This document shows positions 1 to 40,758 of a stretch of DNA of 40,758 nt, in pieces. The DNA lies in the IMG/VR virus record IMGVR_UViG_3300020034_000041, positions 1-40,758 of that record. One strand, given 5' to 3'. This stretch comes from a virus. The notes below the pieces were generated by a model. That model searched no databases. It was not told where the DNA came from and worked only from the letters and a program-made list of their open reading frames with translations. Position 1 is the first letter of the stretch; the number at the start of each line of letters is the position of its first letter. The position numbers and the translations under genes are program-made.

Positions 1-138
1 TCGTAAGAAGTACAAAAGGCGTTGGCCGATAAATAGAATGATGCTAATCGAAGATCACCTTTTCTGTGACACCTACTGCTTTACAAAGTGGCGTGACGGC
101 GAAGAAGAGAAACAAGAAGTTCCCCATGCGTGTCTTCG
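1..138. repeat. Left copy of 138-bp terminal repeat
   Basis: This segment is repeated at 40621-40758. The two copies differ only at position 12 (A here, G in the right copy). Such an overlap marks a contig that closes on itself, either as a circularly permuted or terminally redundant phage genome, or as an assembler overlap of a circular map. The overlap alone cannot tell these apart. Confidence 0.95.
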
Positions 139-12527: not shown

Positions 12528-13118
12528 ATGAAAACAAATCAAATTGATATGCTTAAGAATATTGTCGCGCCGGCTGTCGCTGAAGCGCGCGCTATTGTGA
12601 TCGAAGATGGTGAGGGAATGAAACTTGCTGTTGATCTTCTTTCGAGGTTAAACAAATTTAACGATCAAATCGTCGGAGAGAAGGAAAAGGTAACAAAACC
12701 CTTAAACGAAGCACTCAAAGCGGAGAGAGGACGTTGGAAACCTATCGAGACTATAAATGAGGAAGCAATTCTTATTATTCGAGAGAAGATGATTACGTAC
12801 CAGACTAACGAGACGAAACGAGCGCGTGAGGAAGAAGCGCGTATTGCTGCGCGGGTTGGTGAAGGGAAAGGGAAATTGAAGGTTGAAACTGCTGTTCGCC
12901 AGATTGAGGGAGTGAAGCGAGCTGATGGTCAGGTGGTGGGAGATGGGGGCATGGTGAAGTTCCGCGAAGATAAGATTCTCAAAATCACGGATATAAGTAA
13001 GATCCCTGATATCTTTTGGGTTGTTGATGAGAAGCTCCTCTTAGAGACTCTTAAAAAGGGTGAAACAGTGGAAGGCGCAGAACTTGAAATTAAAATGGTA
13101 CCACTTAATTACCGATAA
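12528..13118 (+). CDS. Coiled-coil phage recombination-associated protein
   Basis: This 196-residue protein has a long helical region (about 30-110; KEKVTKPLNEALKAERGRWK, many Glu/Arg) and a small C-terminal domain (ISKIPDIFWVVDE, then LLLETLKKGETVEGAELE). A helix followed by an IP...KxGxxVxG domain is seen in conserved phage proteins next to recombinases. I recall the layout but cannot name the family. It may bind or bridge the nearby nucleases. Confidence 0.6.
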   Translation: MKTNQIDMLKNIVAPAVAEARAIVIEDGEGMKLAVDLLSRLNKFNDQIVGEKEKVTKPLNEALKAERGRWKPIETINEEAILIIREKMITYQTNETKRAREEEARIAARVGEGKGKLKVETAVRQIEGVKRADGQVVGDGGMVKFREDKILKITDISKIPDIFWVVDEKLLLETLKKGETVEGAELEIKMVPLNYR

Positions 13119-13119
13119 T

Positions 13120-13968
13120 ATGATTACGCCCCTCGCCCCAACTGGAGAAGAACTCATATTCTACAACTATAAAGAACCGTTGGAGCCTATTAAAAATGGT
13201 TTCGGATATATGGGTGTAGTTCTATCGAATAAAGAAGAGACCCGCATTCAGTGTCACATCTGTGGGAAGCTGTTTGAAGAAGTGGGTACTCATGCTCGAC
13301 AGGCTCACAAAATCAAAGTCAAAGAATATAAACAAAAGTTCGGACTCTCTTTCAACACGTCTCTTATATCTGAAAGTATTCGTACTGCCCGGAAGATACG
13401 AACTCTCAAGTGGCTCGCAACTATGTCTCCTAAAGAAAGAGCTCATCAGAGGGAACGTGCTCGGCAAGGAATTATTGAGTGGCATCGAAAACAAAGATTA
13501 AAGCACGGAGCAAAATATCCTGACTTTAAGTTGAGTCTTGAAGTTAAAAACAAACGAGGTACATGCCCTGATCAGCTTCTCTATAAGATCAAAGTAGTTG
13601 CCGAAAAGTTAGGCCACAGTCCTTCACTAAGTGAGTTTGTAGACTATTATCAGTCACAAAGGTTCCTCGCTACTATCATCAAAACATTCGGTTCTTGGAT
13701 AAATGCGAAAAAGATGGCAGGACATGGTGAACCACTACCTTTAGGAAACCCAAAAGGTTTTAAGAAACCTAAATATCACGATGAAGAACTCTTAGAATAC
13801 CTTCAAATGTTCTACAAAGAGAATAAAAAAATACCTACAGAAACAGATGCTAGACGTGGTTTAATCCCTTCGAGTTCTCTTTATAAAAGACGTTTTGGAG
13901 GCCTCCCTGCTGCTCGAGAACTTGCCGGTATACATGAGAAGGTGGGGCGATGGGTCAAAAAGAATTAG
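13120..13968 (+). CDS. MucR-type zinc finger with HNH-associated repeats
   Basis: This 282-residue protein, from the ATG at 13120, has a Ros/MucR-like zinc finger (C45, C48, H58, H63, then VKEYKQKFGLS), a basic helical linker and two copies of the homing-endonuclease-associated repeat (about 150-202 with KTFGSWINAKKMAGH, and 220-272 with RRFGGLPAARELAGI). All parts are DNA-binding modules and no nuclease active site is visible, so a sequence-specific regulator or an endonuclease-derived DNA-binding protein is likely. The start directly follows the upstream stop. The frame also opens earlier at 13060 inside that gene. Confidence 0.75.
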   Translation: MITPLAPTGEELIFYNYKEPLEPIKNGFGYMGVVLSNKEETRIQCHICGKLFEEVGTHARQAHKIKVKEYKQKFGLSFNTSLISESIRTARKIRTLKWLATMSPKERAHQRERARQGIIEWHRKQRLKHGAKYPDFKLSLEVKNKRGTCPDQLLYKIKVVAEKLGHSPSLSEFVDYYQSQRFLATIIKTFGSWINAKKMAGHGEPLPLGNPKGFKKPKYHDEELLEYLQMFYKENKKIPTETDARRGLIPSSSLYKRRFGGLPAARELAGIHEKVGRWVKKN

Positions 13969-14845: not shown

Positions 14846-15088
14846 ATGAATCAGGATATTACATCAGAGCAACAGCAGGATATTAATGATCGAGTAGCGA
14901 AGTTTCGTGAGGGGTATTTGGATTTGGTGAAGCAGTATGAGGTTGATTTTGTTTCCTACCCACAGTTCATTCAAACTCGAGGAGGAGCATTTCAAGTGGT
15001 TACACCGATTAATCTTGTAGATAAAAAATATCTTCCGACTCCAAGTCCACTTCAGCAGAATGATGAGGGTAAAATTATTAAAGAGTGA
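14846..15088 (+). CDS. Small hypothetical protein upstream of chaperonins
   Basis: This 80-residue protein has a helical N-terminus (KFREGYLDLVKQYEVDF) and a C-terminal block (QTRGGAFQVVTPINLVDKKY). I do not recognise it as a named family. Its stop overlaps the next start as TGATG, so it belongs to the chaperonin operon and may be a co-factor or substrate-related protein. Confidence 0.6.
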   Translation: MNQDITSEQQQDINDRVAKFREGYLDLVKQYEVDFVSYPQFIQTRGGAFQVVTPINLVDKKYLPTPSPLQQNDEGKIIKE

Positions 15089-15273
15089 TGAGTATCTGGA
15101 AACGCATTAAGAACTTGTGGAAGCTTTCGGGCTTTGAGTTTAATAATTTGGTAGAGGCAGAGTCCGATATAAAACTATTCTCACAGGGATCTTTCTTTGC
15201 AAAAGGTAAGGCGCAGGTTGTTGATATGCGAGATCCATTATCAGTTGATCTAGGAGAAAACGATGACAAATAA
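15088..15273 (+). CDS. Small hypothetical protein before GroES
   Basis: This 61-residue protein, from the ATG at 15088, starts with an amphipathic basic helix (SIWKRIKNLWKLSGFEF) and ends in an acidic tail. Its end overlaps the GroES start by 11 bases. It has no motif, and the N-terminal helix might contact membranes or nucleic acid. Confidence 0.55.
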   Translation: MSIWKRIKNLWKLSGFEFNNLVEAESDIKLFSQGSFFAKGKAQVVDMRDPLSVDLGENDDK

Positions 15274-15529
15274 ATTCATACCATATTTTGATAAGATTCA
15301 GGTGATGCCTTTTAAACAGGATTCTATCATCATGAGTCAGGATGAAAATCTCATTGAGGCAGGCGAGGTAGTTGCTATCGGGGAGCAGGTAACATTTGTG
15401 AAGGTGGGAGACATTGTTTATTTCGATTCATGGGGATGTTCAAAGACTCCAGAGATTGATGGTGTGAGGCATTATGTTGTGCCGGAGAAGTCAGAGTTAA
15501 TTCTTGGAAAGAATGAGAGTAGCCAATAG
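15263..15529 (+). CDS. groES-like: GroES-like co-chaperonin
   Basis: This 88-residue protein has the Cpn10 layout: a first strand (DKIQVMPFK), a mobile-loop region containing IIM (22-24, where GroES has IVL), EAGEVVAIG (32-40), VKVGDIVYFDSWG (46-58), IDGVRHYVVPE (65-75) and a final ELILG. GroES caps the GroEL chamber. Length and order match the family. Its gene is followed, after one small gene, by a GroEL homologue, so the phage appears to carry both halves of a folding chamber. Confidence 0.85.
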   Translation: MTNKFIPYFDKIQVMPFKQDSIIMSQDENLIEAGEVVAIGEQVTFVKVGDIVYFDSWGCSKTPEIDGVRHYVVPEKSELILGKNESSQ

Positions 15530-15725
15530 TGAATGTGTTGCAGGCTTTCTTCATGATTATCAAGTCAGGAGAAGTACTGATGAGGGCATTGTGGAGCAGT
15601 GTACTCGATGCAAGGACAAGAAGTTCTTTCATGTGAAGACTCCAAACTATATCTATCTTTCGTACCATGTGAGGAGCGCATTACAAAGAAACCATAAGCG
15701 ATTTAACAAAGAATATGTCAGATAA
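15513..15725 (+). CDS. Zinc-binding small protein between GroES and GroEL
   Basis: This 70-residue protein is read from the ATG at 15513. It has FLHDYQVRRSTDEG, EQCTRCKDKKFFH, and a Lys/Arg-rich C-terminus (RNHKRFNKEYVR). C9 and the CTRC pair with nearby His form a probable zinc site. It overlaps GroES by 17 bases and the GroEL start by 11, so it is translated with them. It could be a chaperonin accessory factor or a packaging-related protein; this is unresolved. Confidence 0.6.
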   Translation: MRVANSECVAGFLHDYQVRRSTDEGIVEQCTRCKDKKFFHVKTPNYIYLSYHVRSALQRNHKRFNKEYVR

Positions 15726-17157
15726 TTTTTATTTAAAGGAAGGGGTTGAGAGTGTGATTCGAGGTATTGAAAAGACTACCTCGATTATTAAAGGTACCTA
15801 TGGCGCGGCTGGAGGAAATATTATTGTCGAAGAGTTGGGATATCCGTATCATCGGATTACGAATGATGGAAAGCTTATTGTTGATAAAATAAAGCTTGCT
15901 GATCCACTGGAGAATTTGGGAGCTAACATTATTAAGGAAGCGGGAGACAAAGCAGATCATGATTCAGGTGATGGACGTAAGACTACTATGATTCTTACAG
16001 AGGCAATCTTTAAGGAGTCTCGAGGATTGAAGGGCACACCAATGGAGGTGAAGCGATCACTTGATGCGTGTTTACCTATTATTTTGAAGTCTCTTGATGA
16101 ACAGAAGAGAACTATTGGTGTTGATGAGGTAGAAGCTGTTGCACGTGTATCATCCGAGAGTGTGGAGATAGGGAAGATGCTCGCAGAGATCTATGCACAG
16201 ATTGGCAAAGATGGAATTGTGGAGGTTGATAACTCAAACCTTCCGGAAACATTTTATGAGATCACAGAGGGTGTGAGGCTTCGAGGTGCAAAGTCCTTTG
16301 GTGATTATTCATTCACAGAGCCGGGCAAGGCTGTGTTCAAGAACCCAAAGATTCTTATTACAAAAGATAAGATCACATCAGTCGATCAGCTCGAGGCTGT
16401 GATGAAGCATTTGGTTGCAGGTGGTGTGAATGAATTGGTGATTTACTGTGATGACATAGATATGTCGGTAGCGGGTAGACTCGCGATGACTCATCTTCAG
16501 GGAGGATTTAAGACTCTTATAATTAAGGCTCCAACACTGTGGAAGGATTGGTTGTTTGAAGATTTTGCTAAAATAACTGGAGCAACGATAGTTGATACTA
16601 AGGAAGGTAAAACATTCAAGGGACTCACTATGAATGATTTGGGTACGTGCTCTAAGATCATTACGACCAAGGAGGAAACACGAGTACTGGGTATAAAAGA
16701 TATCACTGAATATTTGAAAGAGCTTGAAGTAAAGGGAACTGATGAGGCAAAGCTACGAGCCTCGTGGCTTCAGACAAAGGTTGCTGTGCTTAAGGTTGGT
16801 GCGAATAGTGAATCAGAACTTTCGTATATATCTAAGAAGGCGAAGGATGCATGTAATGCATCATATTTGGCTTTGAAAGATGGAGTAGTTATTGGAGGAG
16901 GGATAGCTCTCCATAGATGTATTGGAGTTCTTCCCAATACTATTGGAGGAAAAATATTAGCCAAAGTTCTTCAATACCCATATAACCAAATTATGGAAAA
17001 TATGGGGGTTACTTCATTGAATGTATCAGATGATATTATGGATCCATCGCTTGTTGTGAAGAATGCAATAAAAAATGCTGTGTCGATAGCGGGCACTATT
17101 ATTACGACGAATGGTGTTATAATAAAACCAAAGGAATTACATGAGAATATTCACTAA
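15715..17157 (+). CDS. groEL-like: GroEL-like chaperonin
   Basis: This 480-residue protein aligns with GroEL throughout. ATP-site residues are kept: TND (D51, like D52), GDG (D86, like D87), an aspartate in KKAKDACNAS (like D398) and the GGG of VVIGGGIAL. The GDGTTT motif reads GDGRKT, changing two threonines. The apical domain is present (about 180-350). The length is well below the usual 545 or so: the C-terminal GGM tail is absent and the last equatorial region is shorter. Chaperonins of this kind fold proteins in a chamber, possibly capsid or tail proteins. Confidence 0.9.
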   Translation: MSDNFYLKEGVESVIRGIEKTTSIIKGTYGAAGGNIIVEELGYPYHRITNDGKLIVDKIKLADPLENLGANIIKEAGDKADHDSGDGRKTTMILTEAIFKESRGLKGTPMEVKRSLDACLPIILKSLDEQKRTIGVDEVEAVARVSSESVEIGKMLAEIYAQIGKDGIVEVDNSNLPETFYEITEGVRLRGAKSFGDYSFTEPGKAVFKNPKILITKDKITSVDQLEAVMKHLVAGGVNELVIYCDDIDMSVAGRLAMTHLQGGFKTLIIKAPTLWKDWLFEDFAKITGATIVDTKEGKTFKGLTMNDLGTCSKIITTKEETRVLGIKDITEYLKELEVKGTDEAKLRASWLQTKVAVLKVGANSESELSYISKKAKDACNASYLALKDGVVIGGGIALHRCIGVLPNTIGGKILAKVLQYPYNQIMENMGVTSLNVSDDIMDPSLVVKNAIKNAVSIAGTIITTNGVIIKPKELHENIH

Positions 17158-17293
17158 ATGTCCAGTTTGTAGGAAGAGAGCATTCATTGTACGTGTGAGG
17201 ACATATGTTCATCCTAAAGTTGGATGGATGAAGTCACAAACAGAACAGTGTGGTAAATGTTTTAAGAATATTCGCAAGCTAATGAATTCCTGA
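17141..17293 (+). CDS. Zinc-ribbon miniprotein after GroEL
   Basis: This 50-residue protein has CPVC (C7, C10) and CGKC (C37, C40), the classic two-knuckle zinc ribbon, with basic residues between (KRAFIVRVR). It overlaps the GroEL stop by 17 bases. It could bind nucleic acid or protein. Genes of this shape recur through the window. Confidence 0.65.
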   Translation: MRIFTKCPVCRKRAFIVRVRTYVHPKVGWMKSQTEQCGKCFKNIRKLMNS

Positions 17294-17319: not shown

Positions 17320-17664
17320 ATGGCAACAGTTCAAGAAACAGCGCCACAAAACGGAAGAAAAGGAGGACGACCGAAAGGATCGGTCGGTAATCATACTCTT
17401 CAAGCGCAACAAGCAAAGATTCGATTGATTGAGATGTACAAAGTAGCATCTGAATCTATAAATTTAGTATTGATTGAAAAAGCTTTGAAGGGAGATATTT
17501 TAGCAATCAAAGAATTGCATGAACGCGTGTGGGGCAAGGCATATCAAGCGGGAGAGATTGATGTGACGTCGCAAGGTAAACCTCTTTCATTAACGGATGA
17601 CCAATATAAACAAGCTCTCGCAGCAGCAGTTAAGAGAAGCAGTGGCGACCAAAGCAGCTCATGA
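17320..17664 (+). CDS. Probable small terminase subunit
   Basis: This 114-residue protein starts with a basic GRKGGRPKGSVGNHTL segment (an AT-hook-like GRPKGS), then helices with IEKALKGDILAIKELHERVW and a short tail. Small phage DNA-binding proteins of this shape precede the large terminase and recognise packaging sites. It overlaps the next gene by 68 bases. Neighbourhood plus the GRPKGS/helix pattern supports the call, though the family is diverse. Confidence 0.7.
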   Translation: MATVQETAPQNGRKGGRPKGSVGNHTLQAQQAKIRLIEMYKVASESINLVLIEKALKGDILAIKELHERVWGKAYQAGEIDVTSQGKPLSLTDDQYKQALAAAVKRSSGDQSSS

Positions 17665-19687
17665 CGGCTTCCCTGAATATTGCGTAGTAATAGATCCAAA
17701 ATATCAGCTTGAATGGTTTCATCAGCAAATAGCTTTGAAGCTAGAAGAAGCAATCAAGCGAGTAGAGAATGGCGAGGACGTGCGCCTAATGATTTTCATG
17801 CCGCCCCGACATGGAAAATCTGACACAGCTACACAAAAATTTCCATCGTGGGTATTGGGTCGTCATCCCGAGTGGCCTTTTATTGTTGCATCATACTCAC
17901 AAGAACTTGCGACGGACTTCGGACAGGGCACGCGAGATCTCATGGAGAGTGATAATTATAAAGCTGTGTTTGAAACGAGATTGCGTGCTGACACACAAGC
18001 GAAAGCGAAATGGATGACTGACGAAAAGGGAGGCTATACAGCAGTGGGAGTCGGAGGAGCAATTACTGGACGAGGATTTAAAGTAGGGATAGTGGACGAT
18101 CCATTTAAAAATCGAGAAGAAGCTGACTCACCTGTAACACGTGAAGGAGTTCATAAGTGGTGGCGCTCGACATTTTATACGCGACAAGAAGGAAATACTT
18201 TGATCGTGCTTATTCTCACGAGGTGGCATGATGACGATCTTGCAGGAAGACTTTTAAAAGAACAGCAGGAAGCAGAGAAGTTTGGCGAAGACAATATTGA
18301 TAAGTGGGAAGTGCTTCAGTTCAAAGCGATTGCTGAAGAAGAAGAACTTCATAGAAAGATGGGCGCAGCTCTGTGGCCGAAGAAGTTTAGTGTACCGAAG
18401 CTCATGCGTACAAAAGCGTCCCTTGGAGGGTATGAGTGGTCAGCACTCTATCAACAGAATCCTATTGATGAGGCTAATCAGGAATTTAAACGTGAGTGGT
18501 TACAATACAAAACGTTTGAAGAAGTAGGAAAGATGACGACAAGAAAGTTTGCCACTATCGACACAGCACTCTCGAAGAATGCGAAGAGTGACTTTACCGG
18601 TGTCACACGTAACTACGTGAGTGATAATAATGACTGGCACTTTCGAAGTACACGTTATCGTATAAGTTCAAAGCAATTGATTGATCTTGTTTTCACACTT
18701 CATACAGAAGGCTTAATTGGTATTGAAGAGGGCGCATATATATCCGCTGTTGAACCATTTCTAAAAGACGAGATGAATGCTCGAGGAGTGTATCCAAATG
18801 TCGTACCTTTGAAGCATGGGGGTACGATGAAGGAGACACGTATCAGAGGATTAATTCCACGTTATCAAAACAAAAAGATCTTTCACATTGTCGGAGAATG
18901 TACTGATCTCGAAGAAGAATATCTACGCTTTCCAAAGGCAGTACATGATGATTGTTTGGATTCAGCTGCATATCAAAACCACGTTGCAGCGCCACCGGCA
19001 GCAGGTGTCGGTGATCGTTTGACATATACTGATCTCGAACAAAATCTAACATCAGCAGTGAACTCACAGGAAGGTACAATCATTATTGGAATCTCTACAG
19101 CTACACCGATTCATTATGTGGTAGGAAACAAAGAGGGCGTGTTCTTTAATCGTAACTGTAAGAATGTAAAGAAGCCTTATGAAGAGATCGAAACGCTCAT
19201 TAGACGATGGACGAATGTGTTCATTATTGCCGATCAGGTTGGTGACACACTTGGCCTTAAGGAGCTTCAGGATAAATACCCAGGCAAAATAATCATCGCA
19301 TGGTTGAAGACTGATCCAACATCACAAAACATTGTGAAGTGGGGGGACGGCGATTCATACGGACAAGTTAATGTAGGGAAGAGTGCTGTCATTCAAATGC
19401 TTATCGACGAACTACGAGATACAAGACTTCCTCTTAGTGGCACGCGAGAAGATTGGCAGCCAATGATTGATGAGTTTGTAAATCTTTATCGTAAGTGGGA
19501 GATCAATGCTATTGGTGAGCGAGAGTCATCATGGGATTCGAGTGGGCCACAAAATTACATTAAGTCCATGATCTTCTTTCGTGTAGGTATGAGTCGATAC
19601 GCTACATCGGAAGCTGTGATTGTAGGTAATGACATGCTGGCGCATTTGCCGACTGCTAAAATATTCAACGATGGCCTCACATTCTGA
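17597..19687 (+). CDS. terL: Large terminase subunit with extra C-terminal domain
   Basis: This 696-residue protein is the packaging motor. The ATPase has Walker A PPRHGKSD (69-76), Walker B VGIVDD (163-168) and a coupling motif LTRWHDDDLAGRLL (208-220). The nuclease is RNase H-like with D322 (ATIDTAL), E377/E378 and a DDCLD motif (451-455). Ordinary terminases of this type end near residue 465. Here a second region (about 490-665) looks like another terminase nuclease domain (IADQVGDTLGLKEL, REDWQPMIDEFVNLYRKW, SGPQNYIKSMIFFRVGMSR), but two expected Asp are Ser500 and Asn653. Confidence 0.92.
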   Translation: MTNINKLSQQQLREAVATKAAHDGFPEYCVVIDPKYQLEWFHQQIALKLEEAIKRVENGEDVRLMIFMPPRHGKSDTATQKFPSWVLGRHPEWPFIVASYSQELATDFGQGTRDLMESDNYKAVFETRLRADTQAKAKWMTDEKGGYTAVGVGGAITGRGFKVGIVDDPFKNREEADSPVTREGVHKWWRSTFYTRQEGNTLIVLILTRWHDDDLAGRLLKEQQEAEKFGEDNIDKWEVLQFKAIAEEEELHRKMGAALWPKKFSVPKLMRTKASLGGYEWSALYQQNPIDEANQEFKREWLQYKTFEEVGKMTTRKFATIDTALSKNAKSDFTGVTRNYVSDNNDWHFRSTRYRISSKQLIDLVFTLHTEGLIGIEEGAYISAVEPFLKDEMNARGVYPNVVPLKHGGTMKETRIRGLIPRYQNKKIFHIVGECTDLEEEYLRFPKAVHDDCLDSAAYQNHVAAPPAAGVGDRLTYTDLEQNLTSAVNSQEGTIIIGISTATPIHYVVGNKEGVFFNRNCKNVKKPYEEIETLIRRWTNVFIIADQVGDTLGLKELQDKYPGKIIIAWLKTDPTSQNIVKWGDGDSYGQVNVGKSAVIQMLIDELRDTRLPLSGTREDWQPMIDEFVNLYRKWEINAIGERESSWDSSGPQNYIKSMIFFRVGMSRYATSEAVIVGNDMLAHLPTAKIFNDGLTF

Positions 19688-23426: not shown

Positions 23427-24455
23427 ATGCAACCCAATGTAAACATAACCACGACAACCAACCAATACCTAGCTCCGGCTTGGGTTGATCAGGTTCTTCG
23501 TGACAACTTCTTCTTCGGAAAGGTGCTTTCGAAGACAGAGCGATGGAATGGTTCTCAAATGCTATTCCCAATTAAGTACCAGAAAGGAGTCGCCTCTGTT
23601 GCGTTCAACGGATTCGATCTTCTTCCTATCACTCAACAGCCAGTTTCAGTGAACATGACGTTCTACCCTACTTTCGTAGCTACAAACGTTGCACTAGCAG
23701 GATCTGACCTTTCAGTGAACAAGACACAGCTTCAGACTTTGAATCTTATGACTACTATGATGGAGTCACGATCACAGGATCAGGCTGATGACGTAGGTAA
23801 CTTCTTCCAGGGAGATGGTTCATCTTTCGGTGGAAAGGCACCTATGGGACTCGCAGGTATCGTAGACAACGGATCAACTCTTCCTACATACGGAGGACTT
23901 TCACGAGCTACTTATACCGGTCTTAACGCGACAGTTACTGCTTCAGGCGGAACTATCTCGCTTCTAAAGACTCGACAGCTATGGAACGCAATCTCTGATG
24001 GGCCTGTTCGACCGGACACAATCATCACTGATTACACAACATGGGCTTACTTCGAACAGCTTCTAACTCCATTTCAGCGAAACAACTATTCTGACTTCGC
24101 GCCTAACAAGGCTAACGGATCAATGGCTGGCTACACTGCAATGGTTTGGGACGGAATGGAAGTATTCCGAGATCGAAAGATTGTAACCGGAAACTTCTAC
24201 ATGCTTAACACTAATTACCTAAAGTTCTACGGACTTAATTGGTGGGAAGGTACAAAGGTTTCTCCGAAGGCGAAAGTCATCGAAGGTAACGTGTACGAGG
24301 ATTCAATGTATGCACCAAGCAACGCGTTCACATGGACAGGTTGGATCAAGGCTTACAACCAAGGAGCAATTAACGGCTTCATGATTATGGGAGGACAGTT
24401 GCTATGTACTGACCCTTGGCGAAACGGTGTGCTTACAGGCGTAACAGGAGTATAA
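23427..24455 (+). CDS. Major capsid protein
   Basis: This 342-residue protein has an N-terminal arm (TNQYLAPAWVDQVLRDN) and body segments (LNLMTTMMESRSQDQADDVG, WAYFEQLLTPFQRNNYS, VFRDRKIVTGNFYMLNTNYL) typical of HK97-fold major capsid proteins. It follows the scaffold and is among the longest well-ordered structural genes in the head block. Its start has no Shine-Dalgarno sequence, only A/T-rich DNA. The family call is by gene order and fold-like pattern, not by a diagnostic motif. Confidence 0.85.
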   Translation: MQPNVNITTTTNQYLAPAWVDQVLRDNFFFGKVLSKTERWNGSQMLFPIKYQKGVASVAFNGFDLLPITQQPVSVNMTFYPTFVATNVALAGSDLSVNKTQLQTLNLMTTMMESRSQDQADDVGNFFQGDGSSFGGKAPMGLAGIVDNGSTLPTYGGLSRATYTGLNATVTASGGTISLLKTRQLWNAISDGPVRPDTIITDYTTWAYFEQLLTPFQRNNYSDFAPNKANGSMAGYTAMVWDGMEVFRDRKIVTGNFYMLNTNYLKFYGLNWWEGTKVSPKAKVIEGNVYEDSMYAPSNAFTWTGWIKAYNQGAINGFMIMGGQLLCTDPWRNGVLTGVTGV

Positions 24456-40600: not shown

Positions 40601-40758
40601 ATGCAAAATACTCAATGTTTTCGTAAGAAGTGCAAAAGGCGTTGGCCGATAAATAGAATGATGCTAATCGAAGATCACCTTTTCTGTGACACCTACTGCT
40701 TTACAAAGTGGCGTGACGGCGAAGAAGAGAAACAAGAAGTTCCCCATGCGTGTCTTCG
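40601..40758 (+). CDS. 5' part of Cys-rich miniprotein crossing the contig ends
   Basis: An ATG at 40601 opens a frame that runs off the contig and continues at position 1, stopping at 169. It begins MQNTQCFRKKCKRRWPINRM, with a Cys-x4-Cys pair, and continues to HLFCDTYC. Here the second Cys is intact, unlike the left repeat copy. The N-terminal half is basic. It follows the transglycosylase gene by 26 bases. Confidence 0.6.
   Translation, partial: MQNTQCFRKKCKRRWPINRMMLIEDHLFCDTYCFTKWRDGEEEKQEVPHACL
40621..40758. repeat. Right copy of 138-bp terminal repeat
   Basis: Identical to positions 1-138 except G at 40632 versus A at 12. See the left copy for its meaning. Confidence 0.95.

Follow-up and report, generated by a model that had tools for sequence, protein, structure and literature searches.

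The virus-derived DNA analysed here (the window: all 40,758 nucleotides of IMG/VR record IMGVR_UViG_3300020034_000041) contains a real, conserved and phage-specific chaperonin cassette, in which the genes of a GroES-like protein and a GroEL alternate with those of two small cysteine-rich proteins, zn1 and zn2. New aspects are the clade formed by the GroELs of this cassette, the changes at their nucleotide site and the constancy of the two small partners. Most probably, the cassette encodes a dedicated phage chaperonin, in which a GroEL ring and its own GroES-like lid would fold phage proteins and zn1 and zn2 would be accessory. The relevant features are, with coordinates of the window:

1 to 138, plus strand: terminal overlap, matching positions 40621-40758 with 1 mismatch
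14846 to 15088, plus strand: protein of 80 aa, the first of an overlapping run of genes; a homologue is found in 24 of 39 related loci
15085 to 15273, plus strand: small protein directly upstream of GroES and overlapping it; a weakly similar protein exists in the three closest relatives only
15263 to 15529, plus strand: GroES-like co-chaperonin of 88 aa (PHROG 3188, E 1.5e-7; fold comparison)
15308 to 15361, plus strand: mobile-loop region of GroES, located by aligning it to E. coli GroES and 50 relatives
15513 to 15725, plus strand: zn1, 70 aa, with CTRC and the residues C8, H14, C30xxC33, H52 and E67; putative zinc-ribbon-type domain
15715 to 17157, plus strand: GroEL (Cpn60) of 480 aa, member of a divergent phage-only clade (PF00118, PHROG 5725, tree)
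15967 to 15984, plus strand: nucleotide-site motif GDGRKT (GDGTTT in E. coli; T89R, T90K)
17022 to 17023, plus strand: deletion point of E. coli residues 465-488, i.e. the nucleotide stem-loop Y478-N479-A480-A481 and part of the inter-ring region
17141 to 17293, plus strand: zn2, 50 aa, CPVC/CGKC (CxxC...CxxC; 12-member alignment), following GroEL in 37 of 39 loci
17597 to 19687, plus strand: large terminase subunit TerL (PHROG 38, E 5e-89), downstream context outside the cassette

The 138-bp overlap of its ends implies that the window is an essentially complete phage genome of about 40,620 bp; its genome class in IMG/VR is linear. In the relative G025, a single GroEL gene is split across both contig ends, which indicates that other members of 40-42 kb are near complete as well. 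A further contig (G008, 42 kb) shows the same GroEL region at both ends (L049 7448-8582 and L081 1-1132, 80% nucleotide identity), which is either a mixed-strain overlap or a pair of gene copies.

Neighbouring genes of the cassette, which spans positions 15263-17293, overlap each other by 11-17 bp. The open reading frames thus confirm an earlier, sequence-only reading of this DNA, which had seen a GroES-like gene, a CTRC protein, a GroEL gene and a CPVC/CGKC protein in one overlapping unit near the terminase. Just upstream of the cassette region (13060-13968) lies the gene of a protein that combines HNH-associated repeats with a ROS/MucR-like zinc finger. After dereplication (removal of sequences with at least 95% identity), 60 related GroELs were left, 39 of them with enough flank on both sides; loci were scanned with profiles built from the first relatives. 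The order GroES-zn1-GroEL-zn2 is kept in 37 of the 39 loci. The exceptions are L082, in which zn2 was undetected, and L091, with a GroEL of only 28% identity that clusters with the other chaperonins. In the close pair L031/L032, all four genes are under purifying selection (dN/dS 0.02-0.10), and as far as sequences tell, this selection together with the recurrence of the four-gene order is more than chance. For a sampling independent of the chaperonin we used the portal gene and kept the best 80 of 228 matches. Among these 80, 32 loci were informative (at least 6 kb upstream), some of them on contigs that are near-copies; 31 of the 32 carry the cassette, 28 just upstream and three (L118, L128, L149) elsewhere in the genome. 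For the one remaining locus (L117), the cassette was not found in the 18.8-kb fragment.

TerL itself is variable. Within a single portal lineage at least three TerL types have been swapped, with the chaperonin cassette remaining in place (L074 9424-10848, L097 7399-9714, and loci of the L068 type). The TerL of the window (696 aa) looks like a Terminase_6N-type protein joined to a nuclease-like C-terminal domain, the one found in the relatives' TerL type: residues 455-690 are 35% identical to L006. In this extra domain GISTA replaces the motif GVDTG, so that it may be catalytically dead; the long form also occurs in L040, L118 and L128. The TerLs at L097 7399-9714 and L080 8658-11282 comprise 775 and 888 aa, and that of L097 contains an intein-like start (CFDGDTII) within the ATPase region.

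In a tree that included E. coli, Rhizobium, an Acinetobacter plasmid copy, two Firmicute-like sequences and eleven other phage GroELs as outsiders, the cassette GroELs constitute one phage-only clade with a support of 100/100. The sequence-only reading had named such a phylogeny as a check, and the outcome did not refute it. A host origin of the GroES/GroEL pair was rejected, because no relative of the window GroEL was found in the contigs of GTDB genomes and the tree places the clade apart from bacterial GroELs. The two Firmicute-like sequences (L205 and L206; OR848861 and OR846590), whose GroELs differ very little from one another in the tree, lie on unannotated wastewater contigs labelled as Listeria/Enterococcus phages and look like bacterial host DNA.

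Three relatives (G005, G020, G025) allow the cohesion of the cassette to be followed. Here, it is located on the strand opposite the portal gene and at a distance from TerL-portal; zn1 and zn2 remain part of it, and TerL is still beside the portal. In G005 and G020, the relocated cassette adjoins the convergent end of the late genes. Each of the three genomes contains a single zn1 and a single zn2, both with the chaperonin; no zn1 or zn2 was left beside TerL-portal. As the loci L039 (G005) and L011 (G020) fall in different GroEL subclades, relocation has probably taken place at least twice.

Distance correlations were computed for the 22 loci with all five proteins, a sample of few taxa and very short proteins. 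GroES and GroEL distances correlate given the portal (partial r 0.60, p 0.0005); the correlation of zn2 and GroEL given the portal is weak (0.19, p 0.026), and for zn1 and GroEL there is none (0.01). The distances of zn1 and the portal correlate given GroEL (0.57, p 0.0005). These partial correlations indicate that GroES and GroEL behave as a pair and zn1 like the phage backbone. The proposal of a dedicated phage pair, made from the sequence, is supported: the pair is not host-derived, and its partners co-evolve beyond the backbone. For zn1 and zn2, the relocation evidence and the distance test, when added to gene order, point in different directions.

The small proteins themselves resemble no known family. 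Zn1, which starts with ATG (an alternative in-frame TTG is at 15504), matched nothing in Pfam, PHROG, the annotated phage collection or GTDB genomes, and was accordingly rejected as a general phage or bacterial family. In an alignment of 50 homologues S6, C8, C30, C33, H52 and E67 are invariant, and H14 is conserved in more than 90%. The AlphaFold model of zn1 is compact and confident (pLDDT 91.7); its fold matches are weak, with a best VIA Z of 3.1 and a Z of 2.1 for the NrdR zinc ribbon (rmsd 2.0 over 34 residues), and a Foldseek search of BFVD gave no match at E 0.001 or better (0.04 or worse). These short, weak matches of the model to zinc ribbons (NrdR, Lar-like) suggest that zn1 may be a ribbon. 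For zn2, no known family was matched; its two CxxC pairs are conserved in the 12-member alignment, with the first cysteine of L014 as the sole exception. We infer zinc binding by both proteins from their motifs only. A zn1-like protein of 135 aa is encoded beside TerL, outside the GroES-GroEL pair, at L091 9298-9705 (E 1.3e-6) and also in L090 and L092-L096; the L091 group is a sister group, and its GroEL is more like the bacterial ones.

Gene order alone was not accepted as proving joint action of zn1 and zn2 with GroEL: TerL is near the cassette in 36 and the portal in 28 of the 39 loci (a 6-kb window limits the portal count), so that their likewise conserved proximity makes order a weak proof. 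An alternative has to be weighed to which we assign nearly an even chance, namely that GroES and GroEL alone are the machine and that zn1 and zn2 are unrelated neighbours, e.g. packaging, transcription or nuclease accessories, held in place by the gene-order conservation of the lineage. This would agree with zn1 distances that follow the portal given GroEL and not GroEL given the portal, with the zn1-like gene beside TerL in L091, and with other GroES+GroEL phages that lack zn1 and zn2. It is at odds with the position of zn1 between GroES and GroEL and with the relocated cassettes, which zn1 and zn2 accompany, no copy remaining beside TerL. Moreover, when zn1 was searched alone (the genome scan used a four-member alignment; an 11-member alignment was too variable), 17 loci were found, and GroEL is adjacent in all of them.

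Rather unlikely, in our judgement, is the reading, building on the earlier suggestion of possible adaptors, that zn1 and zn2 are client-specific adaptors or chaperonin subunits. The invariant cassette (zn1/zn2 with the pair in 37 of 39 loci), its interdigitated order, the joint relocation, the quality of the zn1 model and the weak co-evolution of zn2 with GroEL given the portal are in line with it; however, zn1 shows no co-evolution with GroEL and its divergence tracks the portal, the zn1-like gene of the L091 group lies beside TerL and not within the pair, and no family, fold or experimental lead ties zn1 or zn2 to a chaperonin.

The preferred reading, a dedicated ring with its own lid, depends on the identity of the two chaperonin proteins. 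For the GroES-like protein the Pfam Cpn10 score is 18.8 bits, which is below the gathering cut-off of 21.1; PHROG 3188 matches 33 of 50 GroES homologues. In the AlphaFold model (pLDDT 85.7) the mobile loop is disordered, with a mean of 55 for residues 21-30. In a VIA comparison, the top 16 matches are all Cpn10s or gp31 (Z 7.8-10.4), among them Mtb Cpn10 (Z 10.4), T4 gp31 (Z 8.5, rmsd 3.1, 82 residues) and 7ekq, a CrClpP-S2c entry that holds a Chaperonin 11 chain. Alcohol dehydrogenases, which share the domain, score lower (Z 6.4 or less). This ranking indicates that the protein has the Cpn10 fold despite its Pfam score. The low-confidence mobile loop is in the matching place and consists of 17 residues in nearly all members, compared with 23 in E. 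coli; the roof segment following it has 6 residues in the window and 15 in E. coli. As the roof is also short in elemo and DAC19, other phage lids share this trait, which is no peculiarity of the cassette.

The identity of GroEL is clear from the profiles: Pfam PF00118 (Cpn60) matches over the full length with 98.8 bits (cut-off 34.3) and PHROG 5725 with E 1e-65. The protein is about 26% identical to E. coli GroEL (477 aligned residues) and 68 aa shorter, missing mainly E. coli residues 465-488, 533-548, 353-360 and 427-433. The sequence-only reading had described it correctly, with three ATPase aspartates, GDGRKT instead of GDGTTT, no GGM tail and a deficit of about 65 residues. The catalytic or Mg-binding aspartates D52, D87 and D398 (E. 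coli numbering) are all present, and most glycines of the nucleotide site are retained. Across the 55 members of the clade, D52 and D398 occur in 55, D87 in 52 and D495 in 51. At the apical position L234, 48 of 55 have a polar residue (E, N or D), which shows that part of the usual hydrophobic groove differs.

The nucleotide site has been altered in a recurrent manner. K51N is found in 55 of 55 members. The phosphate-contact motif GDGTTT is replaced in the window, and several clade members keep GDGTTT or have GDGS(S/T)T; at T89-T90, the 55 members have RK (19), SS (22), ST (8) or TT (6). The RK form is found in two separate, supported GroEL subclades, and the 478-481 loop is missing in 17 of 19 RK members versus 2 of 36 others. 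Of the two RK members that keep it, L057 retains a remnant only and L008 is a true exception. Judging from tree and alignment, GDGRKT has two separate origins in the clade, and in nearly every case the 478-481 nucleotide loop was lost along with it. T89R, T90K and the missing loop change the nucleotide site, so that ATP turnover is not to be taken for granted. In addition, both inter-ring salt bridges are absent in the alignment of the window GroEL and of 30 of the 55 members, as they are in single-ring mitochondrial Hsp60 (PMC5575113). The loss of these contact positions in the window member points to a cycle with a single ring or with readily separating rings.

For the dedicated chaperonin, the most likely mechanism is as follows. 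The phage GroEL would assemble into a group-I-like, ATP-binding and ATP-hydrolysing ring, and the GroES-like lid, with its short mobile loop and little or no roof hairpin, would dock on this ring and cap it. Phage proteins would then fold inside the capped ring without reliance on host GroEL/GroES; the client would most likely be the major head protein, as guessed by analogy with T4 and lambda and from where the genes lie. The head protein of the window is encoded at 23427-24455. The ring could be single or easily split, and zn1 and zn2 would be accessory proteins from the same transcription unit as the pair. A more elaborate version, which we regard as improbable, is a four-component chaperonin: zn1 and zn2 would be obligate zinc-binding partners, bringing the client (head protein) to a single-ring GroEL with a roof-less lid or gating this ring, and GDGRKT with the lost loop would be a second nucleotide-binding solution that evolved twice. 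That the ring, instead of cycling as a folding machine, acts as a holdase, degenerate or independent of ATP, is very unlikely. In its favour are the joint occurrence of GDGRKT and the missing stem-loop in 17 of 19 GDGRKT members and K51N in all members; against it are the kept catalytic aspartates and glycines, purifying selection, and the retained GroES, which a holdase would not need.

These findings define a deep chaperonin branch that is restricted to phages and belongs to the core traits of a widespread phage lineage with genomes of about 40 kb. With zn1 and zn2, two conserved candidate partners of a chaperonin are at hand; to our knowledge, few dedicated chaperonin accessory proteins besides GroES have been described. 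The repeated change from GDGTTT to GDGRKT with loss of the stem-loop offers a natural test of the ATPase requirements of group I chaperonins, and the missing inter-ring contacts together with the retained lid make the cassette a possible natural single-ring GroEL/GroES system.

Phage-encoded GroES/GroEL pairs are known already; the deep phage-only branch and the constant partners zn1 and zn2 appear to be undescribed. The sequence-only reading had assumed that the chaperonin of a phage is usually a lone GroEL or a substitute for GroES, which is not supported: many phages encode only GroES, some both and few only GroEL (PMC7185714, which also cites the viral chaperonins of Marine et al. 2017), and pairs occur in the annotated phages Flavobacterium immuto and elemo, Cellulophaga Calle_1, Bacteroides DAC19 and MW202566. 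In the TM7 phage DolZOral124_53_65, the GroES match is very weak (E 0.017); this TM7 (Saccharibacteria) phage (L203 14894-16625, MG269973) has a 480-aa Cpn60; the gene that overlaps it carries the annotation hypothetical and can hardly be recognised as GroES-like. For soil viral chaperonins with other sequences, peptides have been detected (PMC8390657). As in the cassette, the co-chaperonin gene of these other pairs adjoins the GroEL gene and both are phage-encoded; in contrast to the cassette, their GroELs are 26-30% identical to that of the window and outside its clade, and zn1 or zn2 is not alongside in immuto, elemo, Calle_1, DAC19, MW202566 or DolZOral124_53_65. Among annotated phages, the TM7 phage and MW202566 are closest to the window in portal (26%) and head protein (28-30%). 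Both have genomes of about 39 kb with a GroEL gene, so that the wider lineage seems to favour chaperonins; as a lead only, these similarities would hint at a Patescibacteria host for the window phage.

T4 gp31 shares the Cpn10 fold with the window GroES (15% identity), whose mobile loop is shorter; gp31 uses the host GroEL, whereas the window phage brings its own. The chaperonins of phages EL, OBP and AR9 (PMC7185714, PMC9598537) are likewise divergent phage GroELs, and single-ring forms are known in that group; they work without a co-chaperonin, whereas the window encodes a GroES-like partner that co-evolves with the ring. With E. coli GroEL/GroES, the window pair has in common the ATPase aspartates and most glycines of the site. 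It differs from the E. coli system by K51N, T89R and T90K, by the lack of residues 465-488 and of the GGM tail, by changed apical residues, and by the short loop and short roof segment of its lid.
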